Part shown: piece after piece, positions 29,101 through 36,835 of the stretch
Numbering within the stretch: the stretch's first letter is position 1
How the letters are laid out: each line of letters begins with the position of its first letter
Source: Arthrobacter sp. ov407
Lineage (GTDB): Bacteria; Actinomycetota; Actinomycetes; Actinomycetales; Micrococcaceae
DNA: 64,000 nt
NCBI RefSeq assembly: GCF_900102895.1
Contig: NZ_FNGD01000011.1
Coordinates: forward strand, 1-64,000
Direction of reading: 5' to 3'
The notes under the pieces: generated by a model
Database searches by the model: none
What the model saw: the letters and a program-made list of their open reading frames with translations, nothing else
Told to the model about the DNA's origin: nothing
Translations under genes and position numbers: made by a program

Positions 29101-30432
<1,332 letters not shown>

Positions 30433-30624
30433 CTTTGTCTCCTTGATGGGTCCGGGCCGGCCAGTCTGCGTCACTGCAGATCCTGGCCGGTTGTTCCGGA
30501 TGGTGATGGGCCCACGGCCGCCGGGGTCCCTCACCGAGCTTGCGAGGTGCGGGGGAGCGGCTGGGGCTTCCGTGAGATCTACTTTTCTTCACTTTCCAGG
30601 GGGTTTCTAGGTCAAAGCTCTGGA

Positions 30625-30663
30625 AAGAAATGCACTTCTTCGCATATTCTCAAGAAATGCACT
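30625..30663. promoter_or_regulatory. 12-bp direct repeat in aceA/ramB gap
   Basis: AAGAAATGCACT occurs twice, at 30625-30636 and 30652-30663, in the same reading register (27 bases apart). It lies in the divergent gap between aceA and the RamB-like gene and covers two possible ATG starts of the latter. It could be an operator for the regulator or just a duplicated start region. It does not closely match the corynebacterial RamB motif as I recall it. Confidence 0.4.
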
Positions 30664-32141
30664 CAACCAGCTGGAACCGCCAAGCTTCGTCCCCGCCGTC
30701 CCCCGCCGCGCCCGAAGTGGACGTCATCAGCATGGGCCGCCGCGTCCGCCACTTGCGCAAGGCCGCCGGGCTCACGCTCGATGACCTGAGCGCCGCCGTC
30801 GGGACCGCCCCCAGCCAGCTGAGCCTGATTGAAAACGGTAAGCGCGAGCCCAAGCTCGGCCTGCTCCAGCAGCTCGCCGCGGCCCTCGGGGTAAGCATCG
30901 ATGAGCTCCTCGGCGCCGAGCCGCCCAACCGCCGCGCGGCGCTGGAAATCGAGCTGGAACGCTACCAGCGCAGCCCCATCTATGAGTCCCTCAACCTGCC
31001 GAAAATCCGCATCAGCTCGCGGCTTCCGATGGATGTGCTGGAGTCGATGGTGGGGCTGCAGCATGAGCTCGAGCGCAGGCTGAACGAGCAGGTGGCGACG
31101 CCGGAAGAGGCCCGCCGCGCCAACGGCGAGCTGCGGGCCATGATGCGGGAGCGGAACAACTACTTCCCGGAGTATGAGGCCGAGGCGCAGAAGGTCCTGG
31201 CCTCGGTGGGCCACACGAGCGGTCCGTTGTCCCACCACGTCATTGCGGACATCGCCGGGCACCTCGGTTTCAGCCTCCACCATGTGGGGGATTTGCCGCA
31301 TTCCACCCGCTCCGTGACGGATCTTAAGAACCGCAGAATTTACCTCACGCAGAACGCCCGCAGCGATCACGACCCCCGTTCGGTGCTGCTGCAGGCGCTG
31401 GGCCACTACGTCCTGGGCCACCAGACGCCCAACAACTACGGCGACTTCCTGATGCAGCGCGTGGCCACGAACTACTTCGCCGCCGCGCTCCTGCTGCCCG
31501 AGCAGGCGACGGTGGAGTTCCTGCAGCGGGCCAAGCAGGCCAAGGAAATAGCGGTCGAGGACATCCGGGACGCTTTCGCGGTGTCCTACGAGACGGCCGC
31601 GCACCGGTTCACGAACCTGGCCACTCAGCACCTGGACATCCGGACGCACTTCCAGAAGACGCACAAGAGCGGCATCATCTACAAGGCCTACGAGAACGAC
31701 GGCGTGACGTTCCCGCAGGACCACACCGGCGCCATCGAGGGCCAGTTCTCGTGCCGGAACTGGACGTCCCGGGTGGTGTTCGACGTCCCGGACAAGTTCA
31801 GCGCGTACAACCAGTACACCGACACCCCCGCCGGGACCTACTGGTGCACTGCCCGGACGGAACGCTCCGCGAACGGTGAGTTCTCGCTCTCAGTGGGTGT
31901 CCCGTATGCGCATGTGAAGTGGTTTCGCGGCCGCGACACAACGGAGCGGTCCAAGTCCACCTGCCCGGACGAAAGCTGCTGCCGCCGCCCGCCGGCGTCG
32001 CTGACCGCCGAATGGGCCGGCAACGCCTGGCCCTCGGCCCGGGCCCACTCCCACCTGCTGGCCGCAATGCCGCCGGGTGCATTCCCGGGCGTGGACGAGA
32101 CCGAGGTGTACACCTTCCTGCAGGCGCACTCCGGCACCTGA
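30657..32141 (+). CDS. ramB: RamB-like XRE/ImmA regulator of acetate metabolism
   Basis: 494 aa from the ATG at 30657; 30630 and 30732 are also possible and no start has a good ribosome site. The XRE helix-turn-helix (MGRRVRHLRKAAGLTLDDL then TAPSQLSLIENGKREPKL) is at the N-terminus. An ImmA/IrrE-like region follows: LGHYVLGHQ with NYFAAALLLPE. The usual HExxH of active ImmA peptidases reads ALGHYVLGH, so the catalytic Glu is missing and it is probably a sensor, not a protease. The Cys-rich C-terminal domain (CRNW, CPDESCCRRP) is typical of RamB/ScfR. It likely controls aceA, aceB and possibly poxB; effector unknown. Confidence 0.82.
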   Translation: MHSTSWNRQASSPPSPAAPEVDVISMGRRVRHLRKAAGLTLDDLSAAVGTAPSQLSLIENGKREPKLGLLQQLAAALGVSIDELLGAEPPNRRAALEIELERYQRSPIYESLNLPKIRISSRLPMDVLESMVGLQHELERRLNEQVATPEEARRANGELRAMMRERNNYFPEYEAEAQKVLASVGHTSGPLSHHVIADIAGHLGFSLHHVGDLPHSTRSVTDLKNRRIYLTQNARSDHDPRSVLLQALGHYVLGHQTPNNYGDFLMQRVATNYFAAALLLPEQATVEFLQRAKQAKEIAVEDIRDAFAVSYETAAHRFTNLATQHLDIRTHFQKTHKSGIIYKAYENDGVTFPQDHTGAIEGQFSCRNWTSRVVFDVPDKFSAYNQYTDTPAGTYWCTARTERSANGEFSLSVGVPYAHVKWFRGRDTTERSKSTCPDESCCRRPPASLTAEWAGNAWPSARAHSHLLAAMPPGAFPGVDETEVYTFLQAHSGT

Positions 32142-32378: not shown

Positions 32379-34127
32379 ATGGCCAAGGAACTTGCCACCC
32401 AGCTCATCGAACAACTCCAGGCTGCCGGCGTGCAGCGGATCTACGGGATCGTGGGGGACAGCCTCAACCCGATCGTCGACGCCGTCCGCAAGACCGGCGG
32501 CTCGCAGCAGGGCGGCATCGACTGGATCCATGTCCGGCATGAGGAGGCGGCCGCGTTCGCCGCGGCGGCGGAAGCGCAGCTGACCGGCCGGCTCGCGGTG
32601 TGTGCCGGTTCCTGCGGGCCCGGCAACCTGCACCTGATCAACGGGCTATACGACGCCAACCGCTCCGGGGCGCCCGTACTGGCGATTGCCTCGCACATCC
32701 CCAGCAAGCAGATCGGCAGCAGATTCTTCCAGGAGACACATCCGGACCGGCTCTTCAACGAATGCTCGGTCTACTCCGAGCTGATCAGCACCGCGGAGCA
32801 GGCGCCCCGGGTCATGCACAGCGCCATCCAGCACGCCGTCGGACTCCGGGGCGTCGCCGTCGTGACCCTGCCCGGTGATATCGCCGGCCTGGAGGCCACA
32901 GCTCCAACCCCGGCCCCCGCGGCATTCCGGCCAGCGACGCTCACGCCGGACCCCGCCAGCGTGCAGGAACTGGCCGACGCCATCAACGCCGCCGAGAAAG
33001 TGGCCATCTTTGCGGGGGCTGGCGTCGAGGGCGCGCACGACGAGGTGGTGGCGCTCGCGGGGCTGATCGCGGCGCCGATCGGCCACTCGCTCCGCGGCAA
33101 GGACTTCATGCAGTACAACAACGCCTATGACATCGGCATGACCGGGCTGCTTGGCTACGGTGCCGCGGCCGAGGGCATCGAGGACGCGGACCTGCTGATC
33201 CTGCTGGGCACCGATTTCCCGTACGACCAGTTCCTGCCCGGCACCCGTACGGCGCAAGTGGACCGGGCCGCGCACAGACTGGGGCGGCGGACCGACGTCG
33301 ACGTCGCCGTCCACGGCGACGTGCTCCCCACACTCGCTGCCCTCATGCCGTTGCTCAAGGCCAAGAAGAGCCGGCGTTTCCTTGACTCCATGCTGAAGAA
33401 ACACGACCGGCTGATGAACAAAGCCGTGGGCGCGTACACCCGGAACGTCGGGACAAAACAGCCGATCCACCCGGAATACGCGGCCTCGCTGCTGGACCAG
33501 GTGGCGGCGGAGGACGCGATCTTCACGGCGGACACCGGCATGTGCAACGTCTGGACCGCCCGGTACATCAACCCGCTGGGCACCCGCCGGCTGATCGGCT
33601 CCTACCTGCACGGCTCCATGGCCAACGCGCTGCCGCACGCGATCGGCGCCCAACTGGCGTACCCCGGCCGGCAGGTGGTGTCGGTCTCGGGCGACGGCGG
33701 CCTGTCCATGCTGCTGGGCGAGCTCATCACGGTCGCCGCCCACCGGCTGCCGGTCAATGTGGTGGTCTTTAACAACTCCACGCTGGGCATGGTGAAACTC
33801 GAAATGCTGGTGGACGGGCTTCCCGACTTCGGCGTCGACGTCCCGGACGCCAACTACGCGGACGTGGCCCGGGCCCTGGGCTTCCACGCCGTCCGGGTCA
33901 CGGACCCGTCCCGCGTCGAGGCCGCCTACCGGGAAGCCTTTGCCCACCCCGGCCCGTCGCTCGTGGAGCTCATCACGGACCCCAAGGCCCTGTCTCTCCC
34001 GCCGAAGATCAAGGGGGCGCAGATCCTGGGCTTCGCCACGGCCATGTCCAAGGTGGTCCTCAACCGGGGCGCCGGCGAGGCAGTCAGCATGGCGCGGAGC
34101 AACCTGCGGAACATCCCGCGGCGCTGA
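32379..34127 (+). CDS. poxB: pyruvate dehydrogenase (quinone) / pyruvate oxidase
   Basis: 582 aa from the ATG at 32379 with GGGAGC upstream. It is a thiamine-diphosphate and FAD enzyme that oxidises pyruvate to acetate and CO2, passing electrons to quinone. Seen: IYGIVGDSLNPIVDAV and the catalytic Glu of WIHVRHEEAAAFAAAAE, the FAD domain (ADLLILLGTDFPY), and TPP-binding SVSGDGGLSMLLGEL...VVFNNSTLGM (GDG-N). The C-terminal end DPKALSLPPKIKGAQ is typical of PoxB. Its neighbour at 30657 is the acetate-metabolism regulator, so pyruvate-to-acetate overflow and acetate use may be regulated together. Confidence 0.93.
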   Translation: MAKELATQLIEQLQAAGVQRIYGIVGDSLNPIVDAVRKTGGSQQGGIDWIHVRHEEAAAFAAAAEAQLTGRLAVCAGSCGPGNLHLINGLYDANRSGAPVLAIASHIPSKQIGSRFFQETHPDRLFNECSVYSELISTAEQAPRVMHSAIQHAVGLRGVAVVTLPGDIAGLEATAPTPAPAAFRPATLTPDPASVQELADAINAAEKVAIFAGAGVEGAHDEVVALAGLIAAPIGHSLRGKDFMQYNNAYDIGMTGLLGYGAAAEGIEDADLLILLGTDFPYDQFLPGTRTAQVDRAAHRLGRRTDVDVAVHGDVLPTLAALMPLLKAKKSRRFLDSMLKKHDRLMNKAVGAYTRNVGTKQPIHPEYAASLLDQVAAEDAIFTADTGMCNVWTARYINPLGTRRLIGSYLHGSMANALPHAIGAQLAYPGRQVVSVSGDGGLSMLLGELITVAAHRLPVNVVVFNNSTLGMVKLEMLVDGLPDFGVDVPDANYADVARALGFHAVRVTDPSRVEAAYREAFAHPGPSLVELITDPKALSLPPKIKGAQILGFATAMSKVVLNRGAGEAVSMARSNLRNIPRR

Positions 34128-34148
34128 GCACGGCTGCCGGGACGTAGC

Positions 34149-34218
34149 GAGTTCGCCGGAGGCTCTCCGGTTCGCCCGAAAATCCCGGCGAAACGGTGCC
34201 ACTCCGGCGAATTGGACG
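34149..34218. repeat. 70-bp nested-palindrome repeat, copy 2
   Basis: It begins 22 bases after the poxB stop. This is the most diverged copy: the first arm TTCGCCGGA, a central TCGCCCGAAAATCCCGGCGA and the end ACTCCGGCGAATTGGACG are kept. The rest of the 283-base gap to the serpin gene holds the serpin promoter and nothing else recognised. Confidence 0.7.
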
Positions 34219-34410
34219 TCAGGGGCACCGGCGTCGTGCCTCAGGAGAACCACCGGATCGGCGCCCCGGATGGGAACCGCGGAGCCGCCGCCCCGAGACC
34301 AAAACGACGGCAAACCGTGACCGTACAGGCATCGTTGTGCCACGCTCTGGCTGGTTGACTGGGAGCGGCGGATTCCGCCTATAGTCGGACGCACCTGTCG
34401 GAGGGCAGCC

Positions 34411-35688
34411 ATGAAGTTGAAGGCGACCAGAATCGCTGCGGCGGGAGTCATTGTGGCCCTCACCGCATGTTCGCCCCCGGCCCCCGTGCTCCTGAAGGCC
34501 GACGGCGTGGAACGGGTTTCGGTCTACAGCGCCGCGTATGCCGCTGAGCTGAAAGCCTTCCGGGCATCCGCCCTTGAACTCGGCGCGGCGCTGCTGTCCG
34601 ACGGCGGTAACGGTACCAACGGCAACGTCGTTTCCTCGCCGGGAAGCCTGCTGATTGCCTTGGCGATGCTCCGGGCCGGCGCCACCGGGGACACCGCCGC
34701 CGAAATGGACGGGGTGCTGGGACTCCCCGCGGACCGGCGGGACGAAGCCATGAACGCGGTGCTCGCTTCCCTCGAAAAGTTCGACGGCGACCCCGGGGCC
34801 GTGGACGAGGAGAACCCGCCGCGTAAACCGGTGATGCACGCGGCGAACGGCCTGTTTGTGGACAAAGCCGTGCCCACGGGCCAGGACTACCTGGCCACCC
34901 TTGCCAGGCACTATGGAACCGGCGTGTACCCAGTGAACTTCCCGGACGAGCGCTCCACGAAGCCTGCCATGGATGCCTGGGTGGAGGAGAACACCGGCGG
35001 ACGGATCAAGGAGGCTCCGGCGAAATACGATCCGGACAACACCTTCAGCCTGCTCAATGCGCTGTACTTTGCGGCCGCCTGGAGTGCGCCGTTTGACCCG
35101 AACAACACCTCGGACCTGCCCTTCACCATGGCGGATGGCGAGGAAATCGCCACCCCCGCCATGAACAACGAACTGAAAATGAAATATGCGGAAGGCAAGG
35201 GCTGGCGCGGAGTTGATCTGCCGTATGCGGAGGGCTTCGTCATGCGGCTGGTTCTGCCCGACGCCGGTACCGGCCCGCCGGCCACCGCGTTCGACGTCGG
35301 GAAGTTGACCGAAATTGCGGCAGCCTTCGACGCGGCGCAGGCGGAATCCGTGCAGATCCAGCTGCCCCGGTGGGATCACAAATGCAGTTTTGACCTGCGC
35401 AAGGTGCTTGGATCCCTCGGACTGCACAAAACTCTAAGCACTGCGGAGGACTTTAACAGTATCCAGCCGAAGCTGACTCTCACGCAGGCTGCCCAGGCCG
35501 CCAACATCACGGTCGCAGAGAAGGGCACCGTGGCCGCGGCCGTGACCCAGGTCAACGGCGCAGTCACCAGTGCCCGACCCGTCCCGGAGCGCACCATCGA
35601 TTTCAACCGGCCGTTCCACTACGAGATTGTGCATGTCGAATCCGGGCTGCCCCTGTTCATGGGAACCGTGGCCGATCCCCGCTCATGA
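34411..35688 (+). CDS. serpin-family protease inhibitor, lipoprotein
   Basis: 425 aa. The N-terminal signal ends in a lipobox LTAC (Cys20), so it is membrane-anchored on the outside. The body is a complete serpin: NVVSSPGSLLIALAMLRAGATGDTAAEM (helix B signature), NGLFVDKAVPTGQDYLATLARHYG, and FSLLNALYFAAAWSAPFD (serpin motif NA-x-YF-x-x-x-W). The reactive centre loop starts with AEKGTVAAAVTQ, a small-residue hinge as in inhibitory serpins, then VNGAVTSARPVPER and the conserved FNRPFHYEI and FMGTVADP end. P1 is Thr by simple counting from the hinge, but Arg a little further is possible. Serpins are uncommon in bacteria, and the target protease is unknown. Confidence 0.92.
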   Translation: MKLKATRIAAAGVIVALTACSPPAPVLLKADGVERVSVYSAAYAAELKAFRASALELGAALLSDGGNGTNGNVVSSPGSLLIALAMLRAGATGDTAAEMDGVLGLPADRRDEAMNAVLASLEKFDGDPGAVDEENPPRKPVMHAANGLFVDKAVPTGQDYLATLARHYGTGVYPVNFPDERSTKPAMDAWVEENTGGRIKEAPAKYDPDNTFSLLNALYFAAAWSAPFDPNNTSDLPFTMADGEEIATPAMNNELKMKYAEGKGWRGVDLPYAEGFVMRLVLPDAGTGPPATAFDVGKLTEIAAAFDAAQAESVQIQLPRWDHKCSFDLRKVLGSLGLHKTLSTAEDFNSIQPKLTLTQAAQAANITVAEKGTVAAAVTQVNGAVTSARPVPERTIDFNRPFHYEIVHVESGLPLFMGTVADPRS

Positions 35689-35781
35689 GACGCTCCCTCT
35701 GATCTTGCACGCAAGAAACGGCTCCCTCTGCGAAACGTGAGGGAGCGTCCGGAGAGTTGCTGCGAAACGTGAGGGAGCGTC
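35689..35781. repeat. GCTCCCTC repeat hairpin between convergent genes
   Basis: Starting right at the serpin stop, GACGCTCCCTC (35689-35699) and GGCTCCCTC face two inverted GTGAGGGAGCGTC units, the last ending at 35781. Several alternative hairpins are possible. The element fills the gap to the convergent ThiD gene (ends 35794), so it probably serves as a bidirectional terminator. Same unit family as the cluster at 32147-32294. Confidence 0.65.
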
Positions 35782-35793
35782 TTATCTGACGGG

Positions 35794-36678
35794 TTAGCGC
35801 GGGCCGCCCTGCCACAAGGCATCGAACGGGGCGCCCGAGGCCACCCGGTTCCGGATTCCCGCGGTCACAAAGGCCTTCGCCGTCCGGGCGGCCGCCAGCG
35901 GCGTCGCACCCTTGGCGAGCTCGGCCGTCACCGCCGCGGCCAGCGAGCACCCCGCGCCGGACACGGCCACTTCGCCCACCTTCGGGGCGGACAGGACTTC
36001 CAGGGTTTCGCCGTCGTAGTAGACGTCGACGGCGTCGGGCCCTTCCAGCCGCACGCCGCCCTTGGCGAGCACCGCGGCGCCGCTGAGCTCATGGATGCGG
36101 ACCGCGGCGGCCTTGAGGGACTCGACGTCGGTGATTTCCAGCCCGGAGAGCGACTCGGCCTCGAAATGGTTCGGCGTGACAAAGGTGGCCAGCGGCAGGA
36201 TGTGGGACTTGAGCGCCTGGTCGGTGTCCAGGGCGTGGCCCGGTTCCTGGCCCTTGCAGATCAGCACCGGATCCAGCACCACGTTGGCGAACTGCCCGCC
36301 GGCCAGCGCCGCGGCCACGGTCGAAATCGTCGCGGGGCTGCCCAGCATGCCGATCTTGACGGTCTCCAACACGGCCAGTGCGCCGGACGCGGCACCGTAG
36401 GCCGCCGTCGTCGCTTCCAGCTGATCCGCGATGACCTGCTGGTCCACCGGGACGAAGCGGTGGTTCCAGTTGTCCTTGGGGTCGAAGGACACGATGCAGG
36501 TCAGGTTCGCGATCCCGAAGACGCCAAGTTCCTGGAACGTCTTCAGGTCAGCCTGCGCGCCGGCGCCGCCGGTCGCTTCGGAGCCTGCGATGGTCAGCGC
36601 GACGGCGGGGGAGGAGGCGGCGTCGGGAGCGGTATCGGCAACTGCCAGGGCAGCGGAGTCGAATGCGGTAGAAGTCAT
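35794..36678 (-). CDS. thiD: hydroxymethylpyrimidine/phosphomethylpyrimidine kinase-like
   Basis: 294 aa from the ATG at 36678; the frame extends to 36780, but only the part from LTIAGSEATGGAGAQADLKTF onward is conserved. It is a ribokinase-fold enzyme that phosphorylates HMP and HMP-P (thiamine biosynthesis) or pyridoxine-type substrates. Seen: the N-terminal AGSEATGGAGAQAD (usual AGSDSSGGAG), NVVLDPVLICKG, FVTPNHFEAESLSG and the anion-hole SGAGCSLAAAV. ThiD and PdxK members cannot be told apart by eye, so a pyridoxal kinase role is possible. No thi genes are beside it. Confidence 0.8.
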   Translation of the reverse strand: MTSTAFDSAALAVADTAPDAASSPAVALTIAGSEATGGAGAQADLKTFQELGVFGIANLTCIVSFDPKDNWNHRFVPVDQQVIADQLEATTAAYGAASGALAVLETVKIGMLGSPATISTVAAALAGGQFANVVLDPVLICKGQEPGHALDTDQALKSHILPLATFVTPNHFEAESLSGLEITDVESLKAAAVRIHELSGAAVLAKGGVRLEGPDAVDVYYDGETLEVLSAPKVGEVAVSGAGCSLAAAVTAELAKGATPLAAARTAKAFVTAGIRNRVASGAPFDALWQGGPR

Positions 36679-36835
36679 GGTCCCATCCTGCCATCCCGCC
36701 AAAACCACCCGCATTGTGCTGATGAACAAGCATTCCGTGAACAGTATGAACAAAACCTTAGTGTTCCGGATCACGCGCACTAGGGTGGCGGACGGTGTTG
36801 CTTACCGGCGGCGCCGGATCCAGGAAGGTTCATTG

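Follow-up and report, generated by a model that had tools for sequence, protein, structure and literature searches.

The gene at 34411-35688 on the plus strand of a 64,000-nucleotide stretch of Arthrobacter sp. ov407 (contig NZ_FNGD01000011.1, positions 1 to 64,000; here called the window) encodes a serpin. Serpins are spring-trap inhibitors of proteases. The best reading of this protein is a lipid-anchored inhibitory serpin, and this reading is probably correct. The features on which it rests are listed below; all are on the plus strand.

34400..34405, plus strand: GGAGGG, likely ribosome-binding site, 5 bases 5' of the ATG (from the sequence)
34411..35688, plus strand: serpin gene, 425 amino acids and stop (open reading frame with ATG start; PF00079, E 5.1e-72)
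34411..34467, plus strand: candidate type-II (lipoprotein) signal peptide, residues 1-19 (basic/hydrophobic stretch and lipobox, pattern only)
34459..34470, plus strand: lipobox L17-T18-A19-C20, Cys20 being the candidate lipidated residue (pattern)
34615..35679, plus strand: serpin domain, residues 69-423 of 425 (PF00079 profile match on the genome)
35518..35544, plus strand: hinge P17-P9, EKGTVAAAV, E370-V378 (orthologue alignment; ratio of nonsynonymous to synonymous substitution rates, dN/dS, 0.027 over P17-P7)
35566..35571, plus strand: predicted scissile bond P1-P1', Thr386-Ser387 (ungapped chloropin alignment, orthologue counts)
35575..35580, plus strand: Arg389-Pro390, P3'-P4' (Arg at P3' in 3 of 81 orthologues)

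The window encodes an intact serpin

Open reading frame (ORF) 34411-35688 is confirmed as an intact, real serpin gene. Its PF00079 match reaches 243.6 bits (cut-off 27) and spans profile positions 19-370 of 370, a full-length profile match that assigns the protein to the serpin superfamily (PF00079, MEROPS I4). An earlier reading made from the letters alone (the sequence-only reading) had called it a full-length serpin, which the match over residues 69-423 bears out. No NCBIfam family matches the protein at E 0.001. The sequence alignment to solved serpins covers the whole domain, the closest structures in sequence being conserpin (1e-37) and chloropin (PDB entry 8gxv, 8e-35). The nearest named relatives are found in Arthrobacter sp. 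Bi26 (93% identity, best segment), other Arthrobacter and Pseudarthrobacter. Two opposite-strand ORFs overlap the gene (402 amino acids, 34219-35427; 605 amino acids, 32646-34463); neither has a Pfam match. The plus frame is under purifying selection, with a dN/dS of 0.13 for the serpin body. A PF00079 profile search of the source genome (4,264,397 bases, 27 contigs) found this serpin alone.

The reactive loop

Starting at the hinge residue Glu370, the loop sequence is EKGTVAAAVTQVNGAVT-SARPVPERTIDFN. Its alignment with the loop of chloropin 8gxv is free of gaps, and the P1 Arg of chloropin is the 17th residue from the hinge Glu. For chloropin, PMC10090351 describes Arg-Ser at P1-P1', with a peptide mass (mass spectrometry) consistent with Arg383 as P1. 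In this register the reactive bond of the window protein is predicted to be Thr386-Ser387. It lies in the TSARPVPER region (residues 386-394), which the sequence-only reading had pointed out correctly while finding P1 not obvious; the chloropin alignment and 81 distinct orthologues from the genus now resolve P1 as Thr386.

Inspection of these 81 orthologues showed Thr (53), Ser (14), Val (13) or Ala (1) at P1, which is therefore always small or beta-branched. P1' is Ser in 67, Gly in 11 and Ala in three, and P3 is freely variable (Met 29, Ala 18, Glu 12, Arg 12, others). Serpins of other genera of the family (27 sequences) have Ser (13), Thr (9) or Gly (5) at P1. The same counting was applied to a class sample of 70 serpins, 63 of which fitted the loop pattern and were counted: Ser 36, Ala 15, Thr 4, Gly 3, Leu 2, Pro 1, Glu 1 and Val 1. 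Since 30 of the 70 are the best-scoring loci of the search, this sample is uneven. In many class loops Ser-Ala stands one position earlier, which leaves room for a register shift of one residue; the candidate P1 is small under either register (Thr386 or Ser387). A P1 of this type would suggest target proteases with a preference for small P1 residues, and not trypsin-like ones. Inhibition of a trypsin-like protease through Arg389 or Arg394, both of which lie within the loop of the window protein, is very improbable. Arg389 is followed by Pro, its position holds Pro most commonly among the genus orthologues (51 of 81) and Arg in three, and Arg394 corresponds to P8', far past the usual register.

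Hinge, shutter and selection

Inhibitory serpins have Glu at P17, Gly at P15, Thr or Ser at P14 and small residues at P12-P9, and EKGTVAAAV conforms to this pattern. The inhibitory-type small-residue hinge that had been recognized from the letters is thus upheld, and it is near invariant in the genus orthologues: P17 is Glu and P15 is Gly in 81 of 81, P14 is Thr in 80, P12 and P10 are Ala in 81, and P11 is Ala or Ser in 81. The hinge is also the most constrained of six regions in dN/dS, with 0.027 compared with 0.100 after the loop, 0.132 in the body, 0.194 at the loop tip, 0.217 in the signal and linker and 0.300 at P4'-P12'. These values derive from 121 pairs at least 85% identical, which overlap and so are not independent. 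Among the residues that we take to be those of the shutter and breach (S53, S56, N186, W194 and H334, with positions placed through the antitrypsin alignment), S53 is kept in 81, S56 in 80, N186 in 80 and W194 in 81 of the 81 genus orthologues.

Several observations weigh against inhibition, or against the assignment of bond and target. All 81 genus orthologues carry Gln in place of the shutter residue H334 (antitrypsin numbering), as do 21 of 27 serpins from other genera; in the class sample this position is His in 55, Gln in 14 and Ala in one of 70. Ala takes the place of K191 in all 81 and in 26 of the 27 (class sample: Lys 31, Arg 16, Leu 14, Asp 5, Ala 3, Thr 1). Within the hinge, P13 is Val or Ile and not the Glu of the ExGTEAAAA motif, and Val at P9 differs from it as well. 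Small P1 residues are common in the class too (S/A/T/G in 58 of 63, S/A/T/G/V in 59 of 63), so the type of P1 singles out no target; a small P1 as a hallmark of Arthrobacter was rejected because the actinobacterial class sample looks alike. Counting residues can mislead, as siropins are cleaved at P3-P2 and P6-P5 (PMC5127057), and the same report describes no inhibition of pancreatic elastase or subtilisin by siropins. Positive selection was not seen at the loop tip (dN/dS 0.194), so there is no sign of an arms race, and an arms race at the reactive loop is unsupported by the 121 overlapping pairs. A steady rather than an escalating target is favored accordingly.

Structure prediction of the loop, proposed as a check by the sequence-only reading, gave a divided result. 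The AlphaFold2 model, built from 20 sequences (three of the 19 added ones being distant), has a mean predicted local distance difference test score (pLDDT) of 56, and the C-terminal 41 residues including the loop score below 50. It therefore says nothing on the loop, and loop geometry was not used. With this weak model Foldseek ranks serpins first (E 3e-27, template modelling score 0.73), in agreement with the sequence.

Of the features of the sequence, the genus-wide replacement of the shutter His by Gln, which the sequence-only reading had missed, is the strongest argument against an inhibitor that is canonical in every respect. A non-inhibitory serpin, that is, a surface protein with the fold and without protease trapping (in a chaperone, binding or sensor role), would fit both this replacement and that of K191, each present in all genus orthologues. 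Spence et al. (PMC8233489) suspect a Streptomyces clade with breach and shutter deviations of being non-inhibitory, and hinge motifs persist in that clade; the hinge alone is therefore not decisive. Nevertheless, such a role is unlikely for the Arthrobacter protein. The hinge is its most constrained region and retains small residues at P14 and P12-P10, S53, N186 and W194 are retained, and Gln at position 334 is also present in 14 of 70 class serpins. With the shutter His replaced by Gln throughout the genus orthologues, the protein likely, though not certainly, works as an inhibitor.

Signal peptide and predicted membrane anchoring

Residues 1-20, MKLKATRIAAAGVIVALTAC, have the pattern of a bacterial lipoprotein signal, namely a signal peptide with a lipobox ending in Cys. 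The lipobox reported in the sequence-only reading is confirmed as LTAC at residues 17-20, and the pattern, together with a suitable start codon, is kept in 77 of 81 distinct genus orthologues and in 20 of 27 from other genera of the family. A cruder earlier count gave 93 of 108 N-termini. The four misses in the genus comprise one sequence with Pro-Ala-Cys (L109), one with no Cys (L055) and two short frames (L041 and L114). As Arthrobacter is Gram-positive, the "outer face" on which the serpin had been placed is the outside of the cytoplasmic membrane, and the protein is predicted to be tethered there through lipidated Cys20.

Alternatively, the lipobox might be used inefficiently, or the protein might be shed rather than anchored. 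The serpin A9WLI2 of Renibacterium salmoninarum was found in the extracellular fraction (PMC8863785), and seven of the 27 serpins from other family genera have no lipobox by pattern. Secretion is nonetheless improbable for the window protein, given that the lipobox is kept in the genus although the signal sequences vary.

One sub-group of the genus serpins (L029, L043, L078, L081, L092, L093 and L110) has Ser at hinge position P11 (ASAV) and a longer signal ending in SACAP. No poxB is present within the available flanking stretch in these members.

A dispensable gene at a fixed site

The genes next to the serpin gene were assigned by profile matches:

end at 34127, upstream of the serpin gene: poxB, pyruvate dehydrogenase/oxidase gene
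35794-36780, minus strand, downstream of the serpin gene: thiD, phosphomethylpyrimidine kinase gene
beyond thiD: major facilitator superfamily (MFS) transporter gene

Serpins (PF00079) are present in 76 of 150 genomes of the genus, in 42 of 295 genomes drawn from the family (8 of 32 genera) and in 97 of 345 drawn from the class (42 of 126 genera); the three draws overlap. The description of serpins as sporadic in bacteria thus holds in the sense of presence and absence, as the count for the genus illustrates. In 75 of the 76 serpin-bearing genus genomes there is one PF00079 match, and in the remaining genome (79% completeness) a single serpin is split into two pieces.

Upstream of the serpin in these 76 genomes lies poxB (37), an MFS transporter gene (20) or neither (19), and thiD follows downstream on the opposite strand in 61. 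The flanks span 1.5-2.5 kb only and the counts are therefore lower bounds. In at least 35 of the 74 serpin-less genus genomes, poxB and thiD are adjacent, with 19-468 bases (median 106) between the matched ends as read by hand from the matches. A close relative (G083; poxB 98% and thiD 96% identity) has about 60 bases between the two genes and no serpin. The serpin gene, mostly found beside poxB and/or thiD, is thus present in some genomes and missing from others at one fixed site, where it is dispensable.

Mapped on a tree of thiD from 117 genomes (64 serpin-bearing, 53 serpin-less), the presence pattern needs 24 changes, at least 12 of them on starred branches. This tree, in which thiD is a stand-in for the species tree, omits 14 serpin-bearing genomes without usable thiD, and gains are indistinguishable from losses. 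No serpin remnant was detected in 55 serpin-less stretches (best tblastn E 0.31; blastn gave only repeat elements). Many of these stretches consist of thiD and a few hundred bases, and one (G135) was covered in part, so that those with poxB adjacent are the ones that show the whole site. The idea of a mobile cassette is unsupported, with no remnant in the 55 stretches. Mobile-element genes were absent from the nine further nearby ORFs scanned, although no search was aimed at such genes, and no relative turned up when viral contigs were scanned by pattern.

Serpins do occur on some plasmids (21 of 72,556 records), and several plasmid homologues are annotated as "serpin family protein". A 1.0-Mb Arthrobacter plasmid (NZ_AP024649.1, 773261-774493) carries a serpin 67% identical to that of the window; no gene is listed there, the PLSDB gene table being incomplete. 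Serpin-like proteins (26-30% identity, about 80% coverage) are also encoded in two unannotated "Bacteriophage sp." records from human feces (MT835777.1 and MT835510.1), which represent either mobile gut serpins or mis-sorted contigs.

Proposed mechanism and target protease

According to the reading as an anchored inhibitor, the precursor would be exported and cut before Cys20, and Cys20 would be lipidated, leaving the serpin on the outer face of the cytoplasmic membrane. A serine protease preferring a small P1 (elastase-like, alpha-lytic-like or in some cases subtilisin-like) would attack Thr386-Ser387. The cut loop would then enter sheet A, with the protease left covalently bound and distorted. 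Most likely, this would serve to guard surface proteins from proteases met in soil.

The same trap might instead act on the bacterium's own secreted proteases and keep subtilisins and trypsins off its own surface proteins. Serpin-bearing genus genomes have more peptidase family S8 (subtilisin) matches, with a mean of 5.6 per genome (n=76) compared with 4.3 in those without (n=74; p 5e-7). This excess remains with genome size as a covariate and among the 91 genomes with close poxB (5.8 vs 4.1). For family S1 the means are 4.8 and 4.2 (p 0.026, uncorrected). A loop under constraint is expected for a steady target of this kind, and a review (PMC6718151) names subtilisin as a protease inhibited by a serpin of Clostridium thermocellum and connects this serpin with a subtilisin gene of the species. 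However, S1 and S8 matches are found in all 150 genus genomes, with or without a serpin. Over 11 independent starred-branch pairs, moreover, possession of at least five S8 matches went the same way as the serpin in 2.3 and the opposite way in 0.3 (median p 0.5), and with at least six matches the values were 1.9 and 1.0 (median p 1). The relatedness-corrected test is weak, since few pairs are informative. Target identification by S8 co-occurrence was accordingly set aside, the strong-looking excess being non-significant once relatedness is counted. Own proteases as targets are a possible but rather doubtful explanation.

The ten genomes with the strongest trypsin-type S1 matches (E <=1.9e-27) all bear a serpin (G114, G063, G149, G059, G101, G124, G116, G020, G142 and G082). 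Nine of them make up exactly one starred thiD clade and the tenth has no thiD row, so this may reflect ancestry alone.

No serine protease is present among the ORFs scanned at 29.1-43.0 kb around the serpin gene, the range covered by the annotation. Since the surroundings show no protease partner, the gene is dispensable at its fixed site and the protein has a predicted surface anchor, defense against proteases encountered outside is the slightly better guess, and proteases of foreign organisms are slightly more likely targets than own ones. A role against host or competitor proteases, as put forward in the sequence-only reading, is an inference. Small P1 residues are preferred by bacteriolytic proteases of the Lysobacter type, which attack Arthrobacter. 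It is conceivable, although quite speculative, that the Micrococcaceae possess a subfamily of tethered serpins whose rebuilt shutter (Gln for His334 and Ala for Lys191) and fixed small-residue bond form a standing shield against the elastase-like bacteriolytic proteases of soil predators. The altered shutter would then tune the firing of the trap while the serpin is tethered, and the repeated absence of the gene would track exposure to predators.

Repeats and farther neighbors

A palindromic repeat lies between the convergent ends of serpin and thiD (35685-35785: GACGCTCCCTC ... two copies of GCGAAACGTGAGGGAGCGTC). It folds strongly as RNA (-55.8 kcal/mol, z -5.2). Its core ACGTGAGGGAGCGTC has 10 copies in the genome, compared with none for the reversed control; in two clusters on C15 a minus copy and plus copies lie face to face, 77-162 bases apart. 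The serpin-less site of one genome (G125) holds a similar palindrome. The element is perhaps of the repetitive extragenic palindrome or miniature inverted-repeat transposable element (REP/MITE) type, or a two-way terminator. A second palindromic repeat follows poxB (34148-34211: AGTTCGCCGGA ... TCCGGCGAA). It recurs near serpin-less sites elsewhere (L136, 2143-2210; L235; L237; L130) and also near the serpin of Bi26.

Among the farther neighbors, a gene for a helix-turn-helix regulator that contains a peptidase M78 (IrrE-like) domain adjoins the isocitrate lyase gene on the opposite strand (30630-32141 and 29101-30534). This layout is reminiscent of the RamB-type regulator of isocitrate lyase. 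Genes for a LacI-type regulator and an oxidoreductase lie in these surroundings too.

Relation to known serpins

Chloropin of Chlorobium limicola (8gxv) is likewise an exported bacterial serpin, with the hinge EKGT-AAA, a loop of equal length and Ser-Ala at P1'-P2'. In contrast to the window protein, its P1 is Arg (targets thrombin and KLK7) instead of Thr, and its shutter His is kept. The serpin of Bifidobacterium longum, also an actinobacterium, and the siropins are comparable by description. Both are reported to act on neutrophil elastase and the siropins on proteinase 3 as well (PMC5127057, PMC6718151); unlike the Arthrobacter serpin, they belong to gut commensals and have host targets. 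Thermopin of Thermobifida fusca is another actinobacterial serpin and belongs to group U of Spence et al., a group described there as otherwise poorly characterized (PMC8233489). Renibacterium salmoninarum, whose serpin A9WLI2 was seen by proteomics, is described in a reference title as derived from an Arthrobacter ancestor (PMC8863785), but it is a fish pathogen.

On the basis of N-terminal signals, Spence et al. place some prokaryotic serpins in a membrane-anchored category (PMC8233489). Membrane-anchored prokaryotic serpins are thus a recognized class, which the window protein joins as an intact, ordinary family member. Among the literature matches listed for Arthrobacter, bacterial-lipoprotein and soil-actinobacterial serpins, no title names an Arthrobacter serpin as an individual member. 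The present analysis contributes a prediction of the reactive bond, a shutter change seen across the whole genus sample and the pattern of presence and absence at one locus.

The role of serpins in many prokaryotes has been called enigmatic (Spence et al., PMC8233489). Arthrobacter offers a tractable case: a genome that has a serpin has one, about half of the genus is without it, close relatives differ at the same site, the reactive bond is predicted and the strains are from soil. The question of whether such a serpin acts on own or foreign proteases is therefore directly testable in this genus.
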